Origin: Actinomycetes bacterium
GTDB lineage: Bacteria; Actinomycetota; Thermoleophilia; Gaiellales; Gaiellaceae
NCBI GenBank assembly: GCA_025964535.1
Contig: JAOPYX010000190.1
Coordinates: 1 to 33,246, forward strand
Reading direction: 5' to 3'
DNA: 33,246 nt
Positions 2,308 through 25,272 of the stretch are shown here, piece by piece (positions within the stretch are counted from its first letter, which is position 1; each line of letters begins with the position of its first letter). The translations under genes and the position numbers were made by a program. The notes beneath the pieces are model-generated. The model did no database searches. It saw only the letters and a list, made by a program, of their open reading frames with translations, and had not been told where the DNA came from.

Positions 2308-4452
2308 ATGGATGCCGCCGTTGCGGACGCACGTTCACGGGGCACGGCGCCGGCGGAGCGCACCCGCCCGAGCCGCGGCCGCCTGCAGTCGATCCTGACC
2401 GCGAGCACCGTCGCGCTCGTCGGCGCGTCCGACAACTCGCGCTGGTCGCTGACGGCGCACGCGGCGTTGACCGGATACGGGTTTCCGGGAACGCTCTTCC
2501 TCGTTAACCGGCGCGGCGCCCCGGCGCACGGACGTGAGACCTCGACGAGTTGCGTCGCGATCGGACGGCCCATCGATCTCGCCGTCTGCATCGTGAGCGC
2601 GGAATCGCTGCCCGACGCGCTACGTGACGCGGCCGCGGCGGGCGCCAAGGGTGCCATCGCCCTCGCCTCGGGCTTCGGTGAGTCGGGTGCAGCGGGCAGG
2701 CAAGCGCAGGCCGACCTCGTCGCGCTGGCCGACGAGCTCGACATCACGTTCTTCGGGCCGAACTGTCTCGGGTTCCTGAATCTCGTCGACGGCGTATCCG
2801 GGTGGGCATCGCCGCCCCCGGTCCCCGATCCCGAGCCGGGGTCGATCGCGCTCATCTCGCAGAGCGGCGGAATCGCAATCCAGCTGGGACGCTTCTCCGC
2901 GAAGCACGGCATCCGGTTCAGTCACGTCATCTCGACCGGCAACGAGGCGATGGTCGACGCATTCGACGTTGCACGCACGATCGTCGAGGACGAGCGCGTG
3001 CGCTGCATCGCGATGTTCGTCGAGGCGATCGGAGACGCACAGCGGTTCGACGAGCTCACGGCGCGGGCCGCCGAGCTGGACAAGCCGATCGTGATGATGA
3101 AGGTCGGCCGAAGCGCGCTCGCCGCGGAGGTGATCGCGAGTCACACCGGCGCGCTGGCGGGCGACGACGCGCTCATCGATGTCGCGCTGCGCGGCGCCGG
3201 CGTGATCCGCGTCGACTCGCTCGAGGAGCTCGTCGTCACGGCGGGGCTCGTCGCCGGGACCGGACGTCTTCCCGCAGGCAAGCTCGGCGTCGTCTCGATC
3301 TCGGGCGGCGCCTGCGACGTCGTCGTCGACGCCGCCGACACGTTCGGGACACCGCTCGCGGCGTTCTCCGAGCAGACGCAGGCGAGGCTGCGTGAGACCG
3401 GCTCGGCCTACGGCGCCGCGCACAACCCGCTGGACGTCACGGGCGCCGCCGTCGGCGGGCCACAGCTCATGACGGACGCCGTCGAGGCGGTGGCGGCCGA
3501 CCCCGATGTCGGGATCGTCGCGATCGTCGACGTCTTGCCCGACGGCGACCTGCAGCGCAAGCCGAGCGCACGCCTCACGGCCCTCGGCGAGGCTATCTCG
3601 CGCGTGGACAAGCCCTGCGTCGTGATCCATCAGGTGACCCAGGACCTGACCGACGACGCCTCGCGATCGACCGAGGCGATCGGCGTCGACCACCGGATCT
3701 GCGGCATCGACATGGCCGTCAAGGCGATCGGCGGGGCGATGCGCTGGTCGGAGTGGCGTCCACGCCCGATCGATGCGCCGACGGCGCGCATCGCGATCGA
3801 GCCGCGTCCGCTCTCCGAGGCGGAGGCACTCGAGCTGCTGAGCGCCCACGATATTCCCATCGTCCCGCGACGACTCGCAACGAACGCCGACGAAGCGGCC
3901 GCAGCCGCTGTCGAGCTCGGCTACCCCGTCGTCGTCAAGGTGGTCTCACCCGAGATCCTGCACAAGTCCGACATCGGCGGCGTCGCGCTCGACCTGGGCA
4001 GCGAAGCCGACGTCCGCACCGCGTTTGCGCGTGTGACCTCTGCGGCATCGGCCGTCGCCGGCGCGCGCGTCGACGGCGTGCTCGTCGCGCCGATGCGCTC
4101 GGGCGGCGTCGAGCTGATCGCCGGCGTCGTGCGAGATCCGGTCTGGGGCCTCGCACTTGCGGTAGGCCTCGGCGGCGTCTGGGTCAACGTGCTCGACGAC
4201 TCGAGCCTGCGCAGGCTCCCCGTCGACGAGGCGGTCGTGCACGAGATGCTCGGCGAGCTCCGCGGCCGCTCGCTGCTTGAGGGGGCGCGCGGGAGCAAGC
4301 CGGCAGACCTCGCCCGGCTCGCTCAGGTGATCGCCAACCTCGGCAGGCTCGCACTCGCGCTCGGCCCGCGGCTCGAGTCGATCGAAATCAATCCCCTGCG
4401 TGTCGACGGCGCCGAGATCGAAGCGCTCGACGGCGCTGTGACCTGGAGCTGA
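2308..4452 (+). CDS. Acetate--CoA ligase family protein (NDP-forming acyl-CoA synthetase, CoA-binding plus ATP-grasp domains)
   Basis: 714 aa; VALVGASDNSRWSLTAHAAL, FFGPNCLGFLN, ALISQSGGIAIQLG, SHTGALAGDDALID, C-terminal ATP-grasp YPVVVKVVSPEILHKSDIGGVALDL. Confidence 0.92.
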   Translation: MDAAVADARSRGTAPAERTRPSRGRLQSILTASTVALVGASDNSRWSLTAHAALTGYGFPGTLFLVNRRGAPAHGRETSTSCVAIGRPIDLAVCIVSAESLPDALRDAAAAGAKGAIALASGFGESGAAGRQAQADLVALADELDITFFGPNCLGFLNLVDGVSGWASPPPVPDPEPGSIALISQSGGIAIQLGRFSAKHGIRFSHVISTGNEAMVDAFDVARTIVEDERVRCIAMFVEAIGDAQRFDELTARAAELDKPIVMMKVGRSALAAEVIASHTGALAGDDALIDVALRGAGVIRVDSLEELVVTAGLVAGTGRLPAGKLGVVSISGGACDVVVDAADTFGTPLAAFSEQTQARLRETGSAYGAAHNPLDVTGAAVGGPQLMTDAVEAVAADPDVGIVAIVDVLPDGDLQRKPSARLTALGEAISRVDKPCVVIHQVTQDLTDDASRSTEAIGVDHRICGIDMAVKAIGGAMRWSEWRPRPIDAPTARIAIEPRPLSEAEALELLSAHDIPIVPRRLATNADEAAAAAVELGYPVVVKVVSPEILHKSDIGGVALDLGSEADVRTAFARVTSAASAVAGARVDGVLVAPMRSGGVELIAGVVRDPVWGLALAVGLGGVWVNVLDDSSLRRLPVDEAVVHEMLGELRGRSLLEGARGSKPADLARLAQVIANLGRLALALGPRLESIEINPLRVDGAEIEALDGAVTWS

Positions 4453-4462
4453 GGAGGACTAC

Positions 4463-5629
4463 ATGCCGGCGAAAGCCGCCATTGCAGGGCTGGGCATCAC
4501 GGAGATGGGCAAGATCTACGGGCGTTCGGCGATCGACCTCGCCGGAGAGGCGATCGCACTCGCGCTCGACGATGCCGGGCTCGTGAAGTCCGACCTCGAC
4601 GGCCTCCTGGTCAACGCGAACTCACGCTTCGACAATGTCGGGCCCCGACTGCAGATGTCGCTCGGCCTCGAAGATCTCACGCTCGTCAACGTGATGAACT
4701 CCTTCGGGTCGACCGCGGGGATGATGCTCGAGTACGCGTCCTACGCTGTCGACAGCGGCCGCGCAACCGCGGTCGCGTGCGTCTTCGCCGACAACCCGCT
4801 GCAGGAGAAGGTCTCGAGCTCCGCCGCGTATGCCGGGAATCGCTATCGCGGCGCAACGGGAATGGCAGGGCTCCGCACGGCCTACGGATCGTTCGGTGCG
4901 AACCCTTCCTATGCGCTCGGCGCTCGGCGCCACATGCACGAGTACGGCACGACGCAGGACCAGCTCGGGGCGATCGCCGTGGGGCAGCGCCGCTGGGCGC
5001 TGATGAATCCCCGCGCGCAGATGAAGAAGCCGATGACGCTGGACGACTACCACGCGTCGCGCTGGATCGTCGAGCCGTTTCATCTCTTCGACTGCGGCCT
5101 CGTGTCGAACGGAGCCGTCGCGGTGATCGTGACGTCCGCCGAGCGCGCACGCGATCTGCCGAATCGCCCCGTCTACCTCCGCGGCTTCGGTCAGGTCGCA
5201 CCCGGAGACAACCAGTTCGCCGGACGCGACCCGCTGCTCGACACCGGCGCGAAGATCTCCGGTGAGCAGGCGCTGCGACAGGCCGGCATCACGCTCGCGG
5301 ACATCGATCTCGTCCAGCTGTACGACTGTTACACGTACACCGTCCTCGTGACGCTCGAGGACTACGGCTTCTGCGCGAAGGGCGAGGGCGGTCCGTTCGT
5401 CGAGGACGGCAAGCTCGGCCCCGGGGGATCGCTGCCGACCAACACCGGCGGCGGACAGTTGTCCGCGTACTACATGTGGGGCTTCACGCCGATCTCCGAA
5501 GCCGTCATCCAGCTGCGCGGCGAGGGCGGCGAGCGGCAGGTCGAGAAGAGCGACCACGCTCTCGTGAGCGGGAACGGCGGCGTCCTCAACTACCACTCGA
5601 CGACGATCATGAGCACGCACCAGGGCTGA
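4463..5629 (+). CDS. Thiolase-fold protein of the SCP-x/Ltp lipid-transfer family; probable retro-aldolase-like member
   Basis: 388 aa; KAAIAGLGITEMGKIYGRSAIDLAGEA, VQLYDCYTYTVLVTLEDYGFC, LPTNTGGGQLSAYYMWGFTPISEAV, LVSGNGGVLNYHSTTIMS; nucleophilic Cys region reads VNVMNSFGSTAG. Confidence 0.85.
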   Translation: MPAKAAIAGLGITEMGKIYGRSAIDLAGEAIALALDDAGLVKSDLDGLLVNANSRFDNVGPRLQMSLGLEDLTLVNVMNSFGSTAGMMLEYASYAVDSGRATAVACVFADNPLQEKVSSSAAYAGNRYRGATGMAGLRTAYGSFGANPSYALGARRHMHEYGTTQDQLGAIAVGQRRWALMNPRAQMKKPMTLDDYHASRWIVEPFHLFDCGLVSNGAVAVIVTSAERARDLPNRPVYLRGFGQVAPGDNQFAGRDPLLDTGAKISGEQALRQAGITLADIDLVQLYDCYTYTVLVTLEDYGFCAKGEGGPFVEDGKLGPGGSLPTNTGGGQLSAYYMWGFTPISEAVIQLRGEGGERQVEKSDHALVSGNGGVLNYHSTTIMSTHQG

Positions 5630-5641
5630 CGAAGGAGAGCG

Positions 5642-6079
5642 ATGTCGATCACCGAGAGCACCAAGCCGATCCCGATGCCCGACGACGAGTCGCGGCCGTT
5701 CTTCGAAGGCGCGAAGCGCCACGAGCTGATGATCCTGCGCTGCCGTGCGTGCGATCACCCGATGTGGCCGGCGAGCCACGCAGGCTCGCTGCCGGTCAAC
5801 CCGCGCTGCCATAAATGCTTCGCCGCGGAGCTCGACTGGGCCGTTGCGACAGGCAAGGCGACGCTCTACAGCTTCGTGGTCATGCACCAGCCGTATCCCG
5901 GCTTCGAGAACGACGTGCCGTACAACATCGCACTCGTCGAGCTCGAAGAGGGCGTGCGCTGCCTCACCAACGTCGTCGGATGCGACAACTCGGACCTGCG
6001 GATCGGGATGCCCCTCGAAGTCGTCTTCGAGGATCTCAGCGACGAGGTCTCCCTGCCCAAGTTCAGGAGCGCGACATGA
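5642..6079 (+). CDS. OB-fold / zinc-ribbon DUF35 protein
   Basis: 145 aa; CRAC...CHKC zinc-ribbon cysteines followed by an OB-fold-like C-terminus; directly downstream of the thiolase-fold gene. Confidence 0.88.
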   Translation: MSITESTKPIPMPDDESRPFFEGAKRHELMILRCRACDHPMWPASHAGSLPVNPRCHKCFAAELDWAVATGKATLYSFVVMHQPYPGFENDVPYNIALVELEEGVRCLTNVVGCDNSDLRIGMPLEVVFEDLSDEVSLPKFRSAT

Positions 6080-6858
6080 GCTACGAGTACGTCATCTACG
6101 AGAAGAAGGATCGCATCGCCTACGTGACGATCAACCGTCCCGAAGTGATGAACGCGATGAACGCGGCGACGCACGTCGAGTTGCGCGAGATCTGGGAGGA
6201 CTTCAAGCAAGACGACGACGTGTGGGTGGCGATCTTCTCGGGAGCCGGCGATCGTGCGTTCTCGACCGGCAACGACCTGAAGGAGAGCGCGTCGCGCGAC
6301 GAGAAGAGCCGCGCAGCGGAGCGCCCGCCGTTCGCAGGCATGACGAGCAAGTTCGAGTGCTCGAAGCCGATCATCGCCGCGGTGCACGGCTACTGCGTCG
6401 CCGGCGGCTTCGAGACCGCACTCGCATGCGACCTGATCATCGCGGCCGACAACACGCAGTTCTCGCTGCCCGAGGTGAAGGTCGGCCTCGTGGCCGGCGC
6501 CGGCGGGCTGCATCGCCTGGCACAGACCGCTCCGCTCAAGACGACGATGGGGATGGTGCTCACCGGGCGGCGGATGTCGGCCGAGGAGGCGTTCCGGCTC
6601 GGCATCGTGAACGAGGTCGTGCCCGTCGAGGATCTCCTGCCGACGGCCGAGCGCTGGGCGAACGAGATCCTCGCCTGCGCGCCGATCGCGGTCCGGATGA
6701 CGAAGGAAGCCGTGATGGCCGGCCTCGACGTGCCGGTCGGGGACGCGATCGCGCGCGACGTGCGCGAGGTGAAGCCCAAGATTCGAGCGTCGGAGGATTA
6801 CCTCGAGGGCCCCCGGGCGTTCGCCGAGAAGCGAAAGCCGGTCTGGACGGGACGCTAG
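6076..6858 (+). CDS. Enoyl-CoA hydratase/isomerase family protein
   Basis: ATG at 6076 overlapping the previous stop; RIAYVTINRPEVMNAMN, AFSTGNDLKE, VAGGFETALACDLIIAA, LPEVKVGLVAGAGGLHRLAQ. Confidence 0.93.
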   Translation: MSYEYVIYEKKDRIAYVTINRPEVMNAMNAATHVELREIWEDFKQDDDVWVAIFSGAGDRAFSTGNDLKESASRDEKSRAAERPPFAGMTSKFECSKPIIAAVHGYCVAGGFETALACDLIIAADNTQFSLPEVKVGLVAGAGGLHRLAQTAPLKTTMGMVLTGRRMSAEEAFRLGIVNEVVPVEDLLPTAERWANEILACAPIAVRMTKEAVMAGLDVPVGDAIARDVREVKPKIRASEDYLEGPRAFAEKRKPVWTGR

Positions 6859-6860
6859 CG

Positions 6861-7328
6861 ATGACGGGCACGCGCCTCCTCGATCGCCTCGAGGCGATCG
6901 AGGAGATCCGGACGCTGAAAGCGTCGTACTGCCGCTGGGCCGATCGGGGTTACGCATCGGCAGGCGACGACGCCGCGCGCTTCGCCGGGCTTTTCGTAGA
7001 GGGCGCGGTCTGGACGGGCGGTCGCAGCGAGCCGGCCGTCGGTCCCGCGGAGATCGAGGAACGGTTCGCGTCCTTCCGTCCGTTCGGCTTCCACTTCGTG
7101 ACGAACGGCATCGTCGACGTCGACCTCGACGCGGGCCGAGCGACCGCCCGCTGGAGCGCGCTCGCACCGTCGACGGACGACGACGGCAGCGCGCTCTGGA
7201 TCGCCGGCACGTACGACGATGTGCTCGTGTCGACACCGGAGGGCTGGCGCTTTCTCAGCGTCACGTTCACGCCGGCGTTCAGAACGCCGTACGACGACGG
7301 CTGGTCGCGCACTCGCTTCGTCTCCTAG
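6861..7328 (+). CDS. SnoaL-like (NTF2 fold) nuclear transport factor 2 family protein
   Basis: 155 aa; LEAIEEIRTLKASYCRWADRGY..., FHFVTNGIVDVD, AGTYDDVLVSTPEGWRFLSVTF; same length as the convergent paralog. Confidence 0.85.
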   Translation: MTGTRLLDRLEAIEEIRTLKASYCRWADRGYASAGDDAARFAGLFVEGAVWTGGRSEPAVGPAEIEERFASFRPFGFHFVTNGIVDVDLDAGRATARWSALAPSTDDDGSALWIAGTYDDVLVSTPEGWRFLSVTFTPAFRTPYDDGWSRTRFVS

Positions 7329-7336
7329 ACGAAGCG
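7314..7336. repeat. Perfect 10-bp inverted repeat across two overlapping convergent stop codons
   Basis: CGCTTCGTCT-CCT-AGACGAAGCG read directly from the sequence. Confidence 0.9.
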
Positions 7337-7792
7337 GGTCTTCCCCCACCCGTCCTCGTACGGCGTCCGGAAGGCGGCGTGGAACGTCACGCGTGCGAAT
7401 CTCCAACCGTCGTCCGTGCGGACGAACGAGTCGTCGTACGTGCCGGCGAGCCAGACGGCCTGGCCGTCGGACGCGGTCGACGGTACGAGGGCGTGCCAGA
7501 CGCCGGTCGCTCGGTCCCCGTCGAGCTCGATGATCGGATTCGCGACGAGATGCAGCCTGAACCGTCGCGACGACGAGGCGCGCGCGCGAATCGCCTCCCG
7601 TCCCGACACCGGCTCGGCCGAGACCGCCCACACGCCGTCGACAGCGAAGAGCTCTGCGAAGCGCGTCGCGTCGTCGCCGGCCGACTCATACCCGGTGTCG
7701 ATCCAGCGGCAGTAGAGCGCCTTCAGCGTGCGGATCTCCTCGAGGTCGGCGAGACGACGCAGCCGAACGGACGTGTCGTCGACGACGCTCAT
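7325..7792 (-). CDS. SnoaL-like (NTF2 fold) protein, inverted paralog of 6861..7328
   Basis: MSVVDDTSVRLRRLADLEEIRTLKALYCRWIDTGYESAGDDATRFAELF...; about half of residues identical by eye to the neighbour; shared C-terminus TRFV. Confidence 0.85.
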   Translation of the reverse strand: MSVVDDTSVRLRRLADLEEIRTLKALYCRWIDTGYESAGDDATRFAELFAVDGVWAVSAEPVSGREAIRARASSSRRFRLHLVANPIIELDGDRATGVWHALVPSTASDGQAVWLAGTYDDSFVRTDDGWRFARVTFHAAFRTPYEDGWGKTRFV

Positions 7793-20909: not shown

Positions 20910-22679
20910 CTAGCGGAACCCGACGCTCGCCGAGCTGTCGTTGCCCGCGCCCGTGAGGCGATAAAACAGCGCGGCGATGACGAGCACCGGCACGATCACG
21001 ACGACCGCAGCGGTCGCCGCCTCCGGCAGCGCCGCGTTGTTCCAGATCGCCCAGATCCAGCTCGAGACGACATTGAGATTCGGTCCCGAGAGGAAGATCA
21101 CGAGCGAGAGCTGACGCATGGTCGCCATGAACACGAAGAGGCCGCCTGCGAACAGCATCGGACGCATGAGCGGAACGAGGATGCGCACGAAGACCCGCAG
21201 CCGGCTCGCACCGCTCACGTCAGCCGCTTCCTCGAGCTCGCGATGCTGCGTGATCAAGCCCGCGTGGTTGAAGCGGAGGCCCCACGGCAGGTAATGGATC
21301 ACGAGCGCGACGAGGATGATCCACGACGTGTCGTAGATCGGGATCGGCGAGTTGATGAAGACGCGCAGCACCGCGAGCGACAAGACGACGCCGGGAACGA
21401 CGAGTGGCAGGCTGCCGAGCTGGTCGACCCCGCGGCTCAAGATGCTCGGCCGGCGAAGCACGCCCCACGCCGTGACGAGGCCGATCGCCATCACGAGGAC
21501 GGCTGCACCGAGGCCGAGTATGAAGGTGTTCTTCAGCGCGTCGAGGAACGACGCCGAGTGGAGCACGTCGTGGTAGTTCAACAACGTGAAGTGCCTGACC
21601 TGGTGAACGGACGGCGCTGAGTAGTAGCGCAGGAAGGAGGCCCACAAGAGCATGAACACGGGCGCGAGAATGATCAGCGGCACGAGCAACGTCGCAAGCG
21701 CCGACGGCCACCGGAACTTCATCAGGTCGATCTTGTCCGGCCGGTAGCCCTTGCCGGTGACGGTGACGAAGCGGTGCGCACGTGCGGTCGCGCGCTGGTA
21801 GAGGTAGAGACCGAAGATCGTGCAGGCCATCAGGAGCGTCGCGTAGACGGCGGCCGCCCCGAAGTCCGGCTGGACGGCGTTGCTGATCTCGAAGTAGATC
21901 GCGGTGCTGAGCACGTTGATGTGCGCGGGCGTCCCGATCAGCGCCGGCACCTCGAAGGACTCGATGCCGACGATGAGCGAGAGCAGCACGGCCGCCAGCA
22001 GGCTCGGCCTGACGAGCGGCAGCGTCACCGTCCGCAACGTGCGCAGGTAGCCCGCGCCACTCACGGCGGCGGCCTGCTCGAGGGCGGGATCCGCGAATCT
22101 GAAGGCCGGTGCGACGAGCAGGAAAGCCGCCGGGAACACGATCGTCGCCTGGATGAAGATCATCCAGGTCCACCCGTAGACGTCGACCTGTGGCGCGCCA
22201 CGGCCGAAGATCCCCTGGAGCACCGAGTTCACGAGGCTCGAGTTGGGGCCGAGCAGGAGGATCCACCCCATGGCCTCGACGACGATCGGCACTCCGAGCG
22301 CGACGATCACCGTGAAATAGACGAGCCGGCGGAACGGCGCGTTGGTGCGCTCGACGAAGAAGGCGACGATCGCAGCCACGGCCACGGCGAGCAACGCGCT
22401 CGCGGCAGAGAAGATGAACGTGTTCTCGATCGTCTTGAGGCCCGTCCCCTGGGAGAAGACGTTCCGGTAGTGGTCGAGCGTTCGCGCCCCGTGCCACACG
22501 TTGTTGCCGTTGACGAAGCCGGAGTAGATGACGGTGGCGATCGGCGGAAGAATGAGCGCGCCCATCGCCACGGCGACGAGAATCGTCGTCGCGTTGCGCT
22601 GTGTCGCGCCGACGAGGCGGCGGACGGCAAGCGTGGTCGCCGGCACCGGCGCCTGATCGACGGCCGAATGCGTGCTCAC
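20910..22679 (-). CDS. ABC transporter permease (iron/putrescine-type fused double permease)
   Basis: 589 aa with two membrane permease halves; EAA-like loops EQAAAVSGAGYLRTLRTVTLPLVRPSLLAA and EEAADVSGASRLRVFVRILVPLMRPMLFAG. Confidence 0.92.
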   Translation of the reverse strand: MSTHSAVDQAPVPATTLAVRRLVGATQRNATTILVAVAMGALILPPIATVIYSGFVNGNNVWHGARTLDHYRNVFSQGTGLKTIENTFIFSAASALLAVAVAAIVAFFVERTNAPFRRLVYFTVIVALGVPIVVEAMGWILLLGPNSSLVNSVLQGIFGRGAPQVDVYGWTWMIFIQATIVFPAAFLLVAPAFRFADPALEQAAAVSGAGYLRTLRTVTLPLVRPSLLAAVLLSLIVGIESFEVPALIGTPAHINVLSTAIYFEISNAVQPDFGAAAVYATLLMACTIFGLYLYQRATARAHRFVTVTGKGYRPDKIDLMKFRWPSALATLLVPLIILAPVFMLLWASFLRYYSAPSVHQVRHFTLLNYHDVLHSASFLDALKNTFILGLGAAVLVMAIGLVTAWGVLRRPSILSRGVDQLGSLPLVVPGVVLSLAVLRVFINSPIPIYDTSWIILVALVIHYLPWGLRFNHAGLITQHRELEEAADVSGASRLRVFVRILVPLMRPMLFAGGLFVFMATMRQLSLVIFLSGPNLNVVSSWIWAIWNNAALPEAATAAVVVIVPVLVIAALFYRLTGAGNDSSASVGFR

Positions 22680-23863
22680 AGCACCGACTCGGCGACCGAC
22701 TCCAGCGGAACGTCCGCAGTGGCAGGCTCGATCGCCGGGGTCACGCCGCTCGCCTCGCGCGGGAAGACGAGCCCCTGCGCGGGAAGCGTCAGCAGCACCG
22801 CGTCGCCGATGCCGATCTCCGGCTTCATGCCGGAGACGCGGGCGCGAATCTCCACGCCCTCGGCATCGACGAGGAAGTCCGTGCTCTCGCCAAGGAAGAC
22901 GCTACTGCGCACCGTGCCGTGGAGAGCTCCGGCCGACGACGGCTCCGCCGAGTGAGACCGCGTGGCCCGCTCGATCTTGATGCTCTCCGGCCGAATCGTG
23001 AGCGCGACGGCGGCTCCGGAAACGGCCGCTGCCGTGAGCACGCCGGCGCACGACGAGCCGCCGATCTCGACCACGCAGGCCTCGCCGACCGCCGCCGCCT
23101 CGCGCAATGTCCCCGACAGGAGGTTGGTCGAGCCGATGAAGTCGGCCACGTACTCGGACTCGGGGCTGTGGTAGATCGACGCAGGCGGCCCTTGCTGGAC
23201 GATGCGCCCGTCGTGCATGAGCGCGATCTCGTCGGAGAGCGCGAGCGCCTCCACCTGGTCGTGTGTCACGTAGACCGTCGTCAGTCCCGTCTCGACCTGC
23301 AACCGCTTCAGCTCGAAGCGCATCCGCTCGCGCAGCTTCGCGTCGAGGTTGCTCAACGGCTCGTCGAGGAGCAGCAGTCTCGGATTCCCGACGATCGCAC
23401 GCGCGAGTGCGAGTCGCTGCTGCTGGCCGCCGCTGAGCAGCGTCGCCGAGCGCTTCGCAAGATGCTCCATGTTCATGAGCGTCAGCGTGCGCTCGACAGC
23501 CTCGCGAATCTCGGCCCGGCCGCGGTGCTTGACGCGCAACGGGAACGCGACGTTCTCGAACACCGTCATGTGCGGCCAGATCGCGTACGACTGGAACACC
23601 ATGCCCAGATCGCGCTTGTTCGGCGGGACGAAGAGCGCCGCCGACCCGTCGAAGACCGCGACGTCGTCAATCTCGATTCGGCCCGCGTCCGGACGCTCGA
23701 GGCCCGCAATCGAGCGAAGCGTCGTCGTCTTTCCCGAGCCAGACGCACCGAGCAAGGTGAAGAGCTTGCCTTCGGTGACGTTGAACGAGACGCCGTCGAG
23801 TGCGCGGACGATGTCGCTCTTGCGCGGTGAGAACCGCTTCTCCAATGCCGTGACTCGAAGCAT
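22676..23863 (-). CDS. ABC transporter ATP-binding protein (PotA/FbpC-like with TOBE domain)
   Basis: LLGASGSGKTTTLRSIAG (Walker A), LLSGGQQQRLALARAI (signature), LLLLDEPLSNLDAKLR (Walker B). Confidence 0.95.
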   Translation of the reverse strand: MLRVTALEKRFSPRKSDIVRALDGVSFNVTEGKLFTLLGASGSGKTTTLRSIAGLERPDAGRIEIDDVAVFDGSAALFVPPNKRDLGMVFQSYAIWPHMTVFENVAFPLRVKHRGRAEIREAVERTLTLMNMEHLAKRSATLLSGGQQQRLALARAIVGNPRLLLLDEPLSNLDAKLRERMRFELKRLQVETGLTTVYVTHDQVEALALSDEIALMHDGRIVQQGPPASIYHSPESEYVADFIGSTNLLSGTLREAAAVGEACVVEIGGSSCAGVLTAAAVSGAAVALTIRPESIKIERATRSHSAEPSSAGALHGTVRSSVFLGESTDFLVDAEGVEIRARVSGMKPEIGIGDAVLLTLPAQGLVFPREASGVTPAIEPATADVPLESVAESVL

Positions 23864-23918
23864 CTACCTCTGCTCTCCTGCTCTCCGTTGACGCGACCGG
23901 TCGTGCTGGACATGGAAC

Positions 23919-23955
23919 GTGTGCTGCCGGCAGCACACACCGCCGGCAGCACACA
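23919..23955. repeat. 20-bp perfect palindrome plus a direct repeat of its right arm, between the binding-protein and ATPase genes
   Basis: GTGTGCTGCCGGCAGCACAC (23919-23938); GCCGGCAGCACACA at 23926-23939 and 23942-23955. Confidence 0.95.
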
Positions 23956-23975
23956 GGTCGAGGAGTTCTACAGCC

Positions 23976-25103
23976 TTATCCGCCGTTGATGAAGTACCGG
24001 GTGTAGAGATCGACCCAGGAGTTGTACGCCTGGTAGTAGTCCTTGAAGCCCGTCCACGTGTGCTTCGAGGTCTGCGAGATGACGTTCCATTTCGACTGCG
24101 GCATCTGCCCGGCGATGTCGAACGGCAGGATGGCCGCATTCTTGAAGGGCAGGGCGTTGCCGAGATCCGCGAGGACCTTCGAGCCCTCCTTCGCGTTCAT
24201 GTACCAGTCGACGAGCAGCATCGCAGCGCACGGATGCGGCGCATGTGCCGAGATGGATGACGCCTGGAACTGGCCGAGCATCGGGTTCATCAGCTGCAGG
24301 AGCAGCGGCGCACCCTTCACGATGTGGTCACGCTGGTAGTACGACGACGACATGTCGATGCCCATCGGCGCCGTGCCGGCGATCACGAGGTCGGCCACAC
24401 CGCGACCGCTCACGTTGAGGACACGCACCTGCTTGGCGAGAGCGCGGTAGTACCCGACGCCGTACGTGCGGCGCAGCAGAGCCGTGAACGCCGGAGCCGT
24501 GCTGTCGGTGCCGATGTAGATCTTGCCCTTGTACTGCGGCTTGAGCAGATCGGTCCACTTCTTCGGCACGTCGCTCGGGGCCACGAGGTTCGGGTTGTAG
24601 TAGACGCCCGACATGACGTAGCCGTTCGTGGCGAGGTAATACGGCGACGTCAGGTCCGGCTGGACCTTCGCCATGTACGGCGACCAGAACGGCTGGAAGT
24701 ACTTGTTGTCGCGCGGGATGTTCCCGAGTGCGTCGTTGTAGACGTCGAAGTTGTGCTTGCCGGCGTCCTCTTCGCTCGTCAGACGCGTCACGAGCGGGCT
24801 CGTCGCGATGTACGTGCTCATCTTGACGCCGGGGTACTGCGCTTCGAAGGCAGGCTTGAGCGACGCGTCGGTGGCCGACGAGCTCGTGTAAAGCGTGACG
24901 GCTCCTTCGTTCTTTGCGCACGCGTAGAGGTGCGCCTCGCGATCGGCCTTCTTGTACGTGAAGATCGGGTTGATCTTGGACGTCGCCGACGGCGTCTTGG
25001 CCGCGAGCGACGCAGTTGCGCCGACGGTTGCGAGCAGGCTCAAAGCGCCGAGCAGCAGCGCATACCGGCGCCAGCGATTTCCGCGGTCAAGGCCATTGAA
25101 CAT
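23976..25103 (-). CDS. Extracellular solute-binding protein of ABC transporter (Fe3+/polyamine-type fold)
   Basis: MFNGLDRGNRWRRYALLLGALSLLATVGATASLAAK signal-like N-terminus; EGAVTLYTSSSATDASLKPAFEAQYPGVKMSTYIATSPLVTRL; SD AGGAGGGC upstream. Confidence 0.9.
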   Translation of the reverse strand: MFNGLDRGNRWRRYALLLGALSLLATVGATASLAAKTPSATSKINPIFTYKKADREAHLYACAKNEGAVTLYTSSSATDASLKPAFEAQYPGVKMSTYIATSPLVTRLTSEEDAGKHNFDVYNDALGNIPRDNKYFQPFWSPYMAKVQPDLTSPYYLATNGYVMSGVYYNPNLVAPSDVPKKWTDLLKPQYKGKIYIGTDSTAPAFTALLRRTYGVGYYRALAKQVRVLNVSGRGVADLVIAGTAPMGIDMSSSYYQRDHIVKGAPLLLQLMNPMLGQFQASSISAHAPHPCAAMLLVDWYMNAKEGSKVLADLGNALPFKNAAILPFDIAGQMPQSKWNVISQTSKHTWTGFKDYYQAYNSWVDLYTRYFINGG

Positions 25104-25121
25104 CCGCAAAGCCCTCCTTCT

Positions 25122-25132
25122 TATATGATATA
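25122..25132. promoter_or_regulatory. Palindromic AT-rich site B, between divergent ABC-importer operon and LLM gene
   Basis: TATATGATATA, perfect palindrome around a central G. Confidence 0.7.
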
Positions 25133-25272
25133 TCCAGCAGCGCGAAAGTATCACTCGCTGCTGTCGCGATGTCAAGAGCGACGCCCTCTTCCTTACAGAC
25201 GCCATCCGGCCGTGGTTGATTGCGTCCAGGTTCGTTCGCAATCTGGAGTGGCCTTCCGTATGCTGGCGAACG

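Follow-up and report, generated by a model that had tools for sequence, protein, structure and literature searches.

A thiolase-fold protein without the nucleophilic cysteine and its DUF35 neighbor as a predicted CoA-dependent retro-aldolase in a crotonase-linked operon

This locus raises the question of which reaction a thiolase-fold protein may catalyze when the nucleophilic cysteine is missing and a DUF35 protein is encoded directly beside it. The original prediction read the two genes as a retro-aldolase module matching the Ltp2/ChsH2 organization of steroid side-chain degradation. In the window, by which we mean the whole 33,246-nucleotide stretch analyzed, both open reading frames were recovered on the + strand, at 4463-5629 (388 aa) and 5642-6079 (145 aa), and the two motif regions quoted for the larger protein, VNVMNSFGSTAG (residues 75-86) and GGGQLSAYYMWGF (residues 329-341), are present. 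The pair forms only the middle of a tight five-gene run.

The operon and the thiolase fold

The first gene of the run encodes an NDP-forming acyl-CoA synthetase (2308-4452, +; Pfam CoA_binding_2, Succ_CoA_lig and ATP-grasp_5), which among solved proteins comes closest to the ADP-forming 4-hydroxybutyrate-CoA and 3-hydroxypropionate-CoA ligases and is predicted to activate an acid substrate. Ten bases separate its end from the gene of the thiolase-fold protein, the predicted acyl-CoA retro-aldolase and putative catalytic subunit, with AGGAGG just upstream of the start. The DUF35 gene, encoding the putative partner subunit, follows, and its stop codon overlaps through a common ATGA with the start of a crotonase gene (enoyl-CoA hydratase/isomerase; 6076-6858, +; ECH_1, E 1.3e-64). 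Alignment with PDB sequences showed that both crotonase Glu positions are kept (in GGFE and LPEVKVG), and the enzyme is predicted to furnish a 3-hydroxyacyl-CoA. The final gene (6861-7328, +) was identified by domain search as SnoaL_4 (NTF2-like), no homolog of which turned up near related aldolase loci; a second, similar SnoaL_4 gene lies tail to tail with it directly after the operon (7325-7792, -). A FAS1-DH/MaoC-type hydratase gene (1191-2216, -) is divergent from the operon, and hydratases of this kind adjoin the aldolase gene in Nocardioides, Pimelobacter and Aeromicrobium (e.g., L050, L069 and L082).

Pfam assigned the 388-aa protein to the thiolases (Thiolase_C_1, E 1.6e-47), and the best chains in a PDB sequence search were 4u4e, Ltp2 (6ok1) and Sal (9myr). 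The SCP-x architecture that had been proposed holds for the thiolase part only, since the protein has no SCP-2 domain. An AlphaFold2 model built on a 28-sequence alignment (pLDDT 82, pTM 0.87; residues 116-132 uncertain) gave the same Foldseek order, with 4u4e followed by Ltp2 and Sal, all above the Cys-bearing thiolases. As the TM-scores overlap (0.83-0.87 for aldolases, 0.78-0.86 for thiolases) and fail on their own to split the two groups, the argument is carried by residues and phylogeny.

Active-site residues and the DUF35 partner

Alignment with solved thiolases placed Gly82 (codon 4706-4708, +) in the column of the nucleophilic Cys and Tyr337 (5471-5473, +) in that of the GHP His, so both substitutions called from the motifs stand, and no Cys was seen at the nucleophile position. 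The same column contains Gly in Ltp2 and Sal, and Cys in BbsB, the SCP2-thiolase and an archaeal thiolase. Our 81 homologs consisted of 80 loci from genome contigs (56-67% identity) plus a divergent paralog from the same genome. Gly82 and Tyr337 are each fixed in 81/81, so neither substitution is accidental; Tyr287 is found in 80/81 and Cys289 in 79/81. Gly82, Tyr287 and Tyr337 are thus invariant in all 80 loci, as the lone Tyr287 exception is the paralog, which is also one of the two exceptions at Cys289. This paralog (L002:551-1693; about 40% identity) has its own DUF35 and keeps the Tyr337 equivalent, with QDPT replacing YDCY.

Residue roles for Ltp2 and Sal were both drawn from the Sal paper (PMC12329534). 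TcLtp2 uses Tyr294 of YDHF as base and Tyr344 as acid; in CtSal these roles fall to Tyr302 and Cys304 of its YDCY motif, and Gln352 takes the place of Tyr344. The Tyr287-Asp288-Cys289 codons of the YDCY motif lie at 5321-5329 (+), where Tyr287 corresponds to Ltp2 Tyr294 and Sal Tyr302, and Cys289 to Sal Cys304 and Ltp2 His296. Tyr337 corresponds to Ltp2 Tyr344 and Sal Gln352, and is Tyr in IpfD as well. The 388-aa protein therefore combines the Ltp2 pair (Tyr287, Tyr337) with the Sal Cys (Cys289), and by alignment Tyr287 is the predicted catalytic base and Tyr337 the predicted general acid.

L004 and L107 carry Ser at position 289, and the IpfD group has Ala or Pro there, whereas Tyr337 is kept in all of them, suggesting that the two tyrosines would be the working pair and Cys289 an auxiliary residue. 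Since Cys289 is kept in 79 of the 81 homologs, a role like that in Sal is still conceivable, and it may act in this way. This Cys had been overlooked: the retained residue of YDC289Y is the one used as acid/base by SCP2 thiolases and for aldolase chemistry by Sal. The marks of SCP2-type thiolases are absent, with YDCY rather than HDCF, AYYM rather than GHP, and Gly82 rather than Cys.

The adjacent gene was confirmed by Pfam as a zinc-ribbon/OB-fold DUF35 protein (zf-ChsH2 and OB_ChsH2_C), with the DUF35 parts of Shy (9myr_B) and ChsH2 (6ok1_B) as its best solved relatives. All four zinc-ribbon cysteines (Cys34, Cys37, Cys56 and Cys59; 5741-5818, +) are present in 68/68 aligned DUF35 sequences, which makes the zinc site C4, whereas Shy has a C3H1 site. 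Of the 80 loci, 73 have a DUF35 gene on the aldolase strand no more than 600 bp from the aldolase gene, and 79 have one when the distance is extended to 1.3 kb; the sole locus without one is on a 3.9-kb contig. The protein is indeed stand-alone, as had been remarked, but this is not distinctive: IpfD likewise has a stand-alone DUF35 (IpfE), and the same is true of most relatives examined.

Position among known aldolases and thiolases

Two trees were built. In the careful 42-row tree, the window protein, IpfD and four other dioxygenase-linked proteins form one clade (100/100), whose sister is Ltp2 plus a Variovorax protein (joined at 93/89); Sal and 4u4e fall outside this grouping, and the Cys-bearing thiolases split off at 100/100. 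The larger 64-row tree agrees on the clade with IpfD (100 SH-aLRT). The companion of the window protein is thus IpfD instead of Ltp2, the rows of which form their own 100/100 clade. Within the clade, the window protein groups most closely with members from Ktedonobacteria, Acetobacteraceae, Aeromicrobium and R. opacus (98/93), and the dioxygenase-linked proteins form a subgroup of their own with Ala or Pro at the Cys289 position; an AU test of the non-dioxygenase members as a single clade gave p 0.08.

IpfD-IpfE is encoded on plasmid pIBU218 of Rhizorhabdus wittichii MPO218, and the same proteins are found on a Sphingopyxis granuli RW412 plasmid. The pIBU218 gene row, comprising Rieske alpha and beta subunits, the 49%-identical homolog, an OB-fold protein and an AMP ligase, agrees with the order ipfA-B-D-E-F, and on four further plasmids a clade member is encoded together with Rieske alpha/beta subunits. 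In the published account, ibuprofen is activated with CoA and dioxygenated, and a retro-aldolase step then splits the product into propionyl-CoA and 4-isobutylcatechol; an ipfD transposon insertion mutant is Ibu-minus and does not grow on ibuprofen, and the retro-aldolase assignment is based on genetics and metabolites (PMC9195938). IpfD shares with the window protein the Gly at the nucleophile position, the equivalents of Tyr287 and Tyr337, a DUF35 gene directly downstream and a CoA ligase in the operon. It differs in having YDAF instead of YDCY, and its operon contains a Rieske dioxygenase and an AMP-binding ligase where that of the window has a crotonase and an NDP-forming ligase.

Ltp2-ChsH2(DUF35) of Thermomonospora curvata (6ok1) is alike in thiolase fold, DUF35 partner and Gly at the nucleophile, with base and acid tyrosines at matching positions and a C4 zinc site in both, but it belongs to a separate clade, has YDHF against YDCY (His for Cys289), and carries its DUF35 fused to a MaoC domain within a steroid gene cluster. 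The bile-acid aldolase Sal-Shy(DUF35) of Comamonas testosteroni (9myr) shares YDCY, Gly at the nucleophile and Gln at the GGQL position (Gln332 here, Gln347 in Sal), and differs in Gln352 against Tyr337, C3H1 against C4 zinc, a MaoC-fused DUF35 and a separate clade. The best PDB match by both sequence and fold, the putative thiolase 4u4e of Sphaerobacter thermophilus, is also without the nucleophilic Cys, but has YDSF and His at the Tyr337 position and belongs to a separate 100/100 group. SCP2-type thiolases and the benzoylsuccinyl-CoA thiolase BbsAB, with BbsA as DUF35 partner, have the fold in common and, unlike the window protein, keep the Cys nucleophile, the His of HD[CA]F and the GHP/GH motif. 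Steroid degradation of the Ltp2/ChsH2 type was therefore the wrong nearest relative, whereas the mechanism class was right, and the window protein is to be compared with IpfD/IpfE first and with Ltp2/Sal second.

Predicted reaction, alternatives and genomic setting

We consider it probable that the 388-aa protein and the DUF35 protein constitute one enzyme, a CoA-dependent retro-aldolase on a thiolase fold. This is the best reading of the invariant Gly82, Tyr287 and Tyr337, of a DUF35 gene nearby in 79/80 loci and of the exact mapping of the Ltp2 tyrosines; together with aldolase folds among the nearest structures and the 100/100 clade with IpfD, it leaves the retro-aldolase assignment well supported. 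Complex formation, chemistry, direction and substrate we infer as follows. The synthetase would convert an acid to its CoA thioester, and the crotonase would hydrate the alpha,beta double bond to give a 3-hydroxyacyl-CoA. Tyr287 would then deprotonate the beta-hydroxyl, cleavage between Calpha and Cbeta would yield an aldehyde or ketone and a CoA enolate, and protonation of the enolate by Tyr337 would free acetyl-CoA or propionyl-CoA. Cys289, at the position of the Ltp2 oxyanion-hole His, probably helps and would be replaceable, and the DUF35 protein should associate in the manner of Ltp2-ChsH2(DUF35), completing the substrate pocket. The overall route would run from acid through enoyl-CoA and 3-hydroxyacyl-CoA to a carbonyl product and an acyl-CoA.

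A steroid side-chain aldolase with Ltp2 or Sal function, its ring-degradation genes being elsewhere in the organism, would account for the fold, the Ltp2 Tyr/Tyr pair, the Sal-type YDCY and the P450, acyl-CoA dehydrogenase and MaoC-type genes of the window. We regard it as unlikely, because the tree places the protein in neither the Ltp2 nor the Sal clade, KshA was not found in the 76.6%-complete genome, a crotonase stands in place of the MaoC-DUF35 fusion, and the zinc site is C4 against the C3H1 of Shy. The window contains no steroid ring genes, as had been noted for the surroundings, and none were seen near loci with annotated neighbors. Equally improbable is the IpfD reaction proper, removal of an acyl-CoA from a dearomatized arylalkanoyl-CoA cis-diol made by a Rieske dioxygenase. 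The common clade would favor it, but the one Ring_hydroxyl_A (Rieske alpha) gene of the genome is on another contig (C227), the crotonase takes its place in the operon, and the dioxygenase-linked proteins are a subgroup in which Ala or Pro replaces Cys289.

Databases label relatives of the protein as acetyl-CoA acetyltransferase, and the near-invariant Cys289 occupies the second Cys position of SCP2-thiolases, so one has to weigh whether the protein is still a thiolase or a Claisen-type acyltransferase, with Cys289 serving as the nucleophile. This is very unlikely, given that Gly has replaced the nucleophilic Cys, and Tyr the GHP His, in every homolog, that Cys289 gives way to Ser, Ala or Pro in relatives, and that Sal, which also has this Cys, works as an aldolase and has no nucleophile (PMC12329534). 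A decarboxylase or a non-catalytic scaffold, in which the fold alone was kept, seems to us the least probable; TbSLP (YDCF) does decarboxylate malonyl-CoA very slowly, but CtSal does not decarboxylate it (PMC12329534), and the invariance of the polar residues in the active site and the strict linkage to DUF35 speak against both.

If the members of the clade are read as CoA-dependent aldolases, many pathway predictions would be corrected, since hundreds of its genes bear the annotation acetyl-CoA acetyltransferase, thiolase or lipid-transfer protein even though the thiolysis residues are gone. This reading would also point to the removal of side chains from non-steroid compounds by retro-aldol cleavage in several phyla, and in pollutant pathways carried on plasmids among them. 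With Tyr337 invariant and position 289 varying between Cys, Ser, Ala and Pro (His in Ltp2), the clade offers a clean test of the acid residue.

No close aldolase ortholog was found in 40 genomes of the same genus, family and order (best 38%), and the methylmalonyl-CoA mutase of the window is also without a close match in relatives (best 46%; 20-40 relatives for the two genes), so mis-binning was considered. The tetranucleotide composition of the contig fits that of other contigs in the assembly (r 0.89-0.97 for eight of nine), making a mis-binned contig less likely than an acquired island. The missing ortholog, together with this match in composition, suggests that the window is an acquired catabolic island, which we prefer. 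It also encodes a P450, several SDRs, an acyl-CoA dehydrogenase, MmgE/PrpD, a luciferase-type monooxygenase and two AMP ligases. The nearby mutase would fit propionyl-CoA release, which is only suggestive; beside its gene lie an ABC importer (permease, ATPase and solute-binding protein) and a GntR/FCD regulator (20910-25241, -).

The core of synthetase, aldolase, DUF35 and crotonase, ordered NDPACS-ALD-DUF35-ECH in the window, is found in other gene orders in Ktedonobacteria, Aeromicrobium and Rhodococcus opacus plasmids: Ktedonosporobacter and Thermogemmatispora (L004, L015, L019) have NDPACS-DUF35-ECH-ALD, and Aeromicrobium (L039) and the plasmids (L134, L141) have ALD-DUF35-ECH-NDPACS. The crotonases of these modules are 51-58% identical to that of the window, and their tree shows no single resolved clade. 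A crotonase or MaoC-type hydratase is directly beside the aldolase in 19/80 loci overall and in none of the Acetobacteraceae members. The aldolase clade thus adjoins three unrelated ways of putting oxygen beta to the thioester, namely crotonase, MaoC-type hydratase and Rieske dioxygenase. Neither the window nor the 6 kb around each of the 80 loci yielded a 3HCDH-family 3-hydroxyacyl-CoA dehydrogenase, which is weak evidence, as SDRs can perform this step and sit about 22 kb away in the window.

The literature searched contained no description of a crotonase-linked version, a weak negative given that subscription papers were mostly outside its coverage, and no biochemistry for members of this branch. 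This operon type, with the addition of SnoaL here, is apparently undescribed. We tentatively propose, with somewhat less than even confidence, that NDP-forming acyl-CoA synthetase, crotonase, Tyr/Cys/Tyr thiolase-fold aldolase and stand-alone DUF35 make up a widespread undescribed catabolic module, in which side chains of non-steroid substrates would be shortened or removed by hydration and retro-aldol cleavage instead of beta-oxidation. If so, two separate enzymes would do what feruloyl-CoA hydratase-lyase does with one.

A scan of neighbor families at the 80 loci for a common substrate pointed to no single pathway, with subsets carrying CoA-transferases, NMO-type flavoproteins, P450s, PhyH, Baeyer-Villiger-type FMOs and others. 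A nitronate-monooxygenase-type flavoprotein is directly beside the aldolase in 17/80 loci (L036, L040, L043, L047, L048, L052, L058, L060, L065 and others). At L007, L008 and L044 a flavin-binding (Baeyer-Villiger-like) monooxygenase adjoins it, which would suit a ketone product, and L007 and L008 also have an adjoining alpha/beta hydrolase. On the R. opacus S8 plasmid the aldolase gene (L134:10001-11144) is split in two frames, either a pseudogene or a sequencing error, and that on the R. opacus G13 plasmid (L141) is intact.
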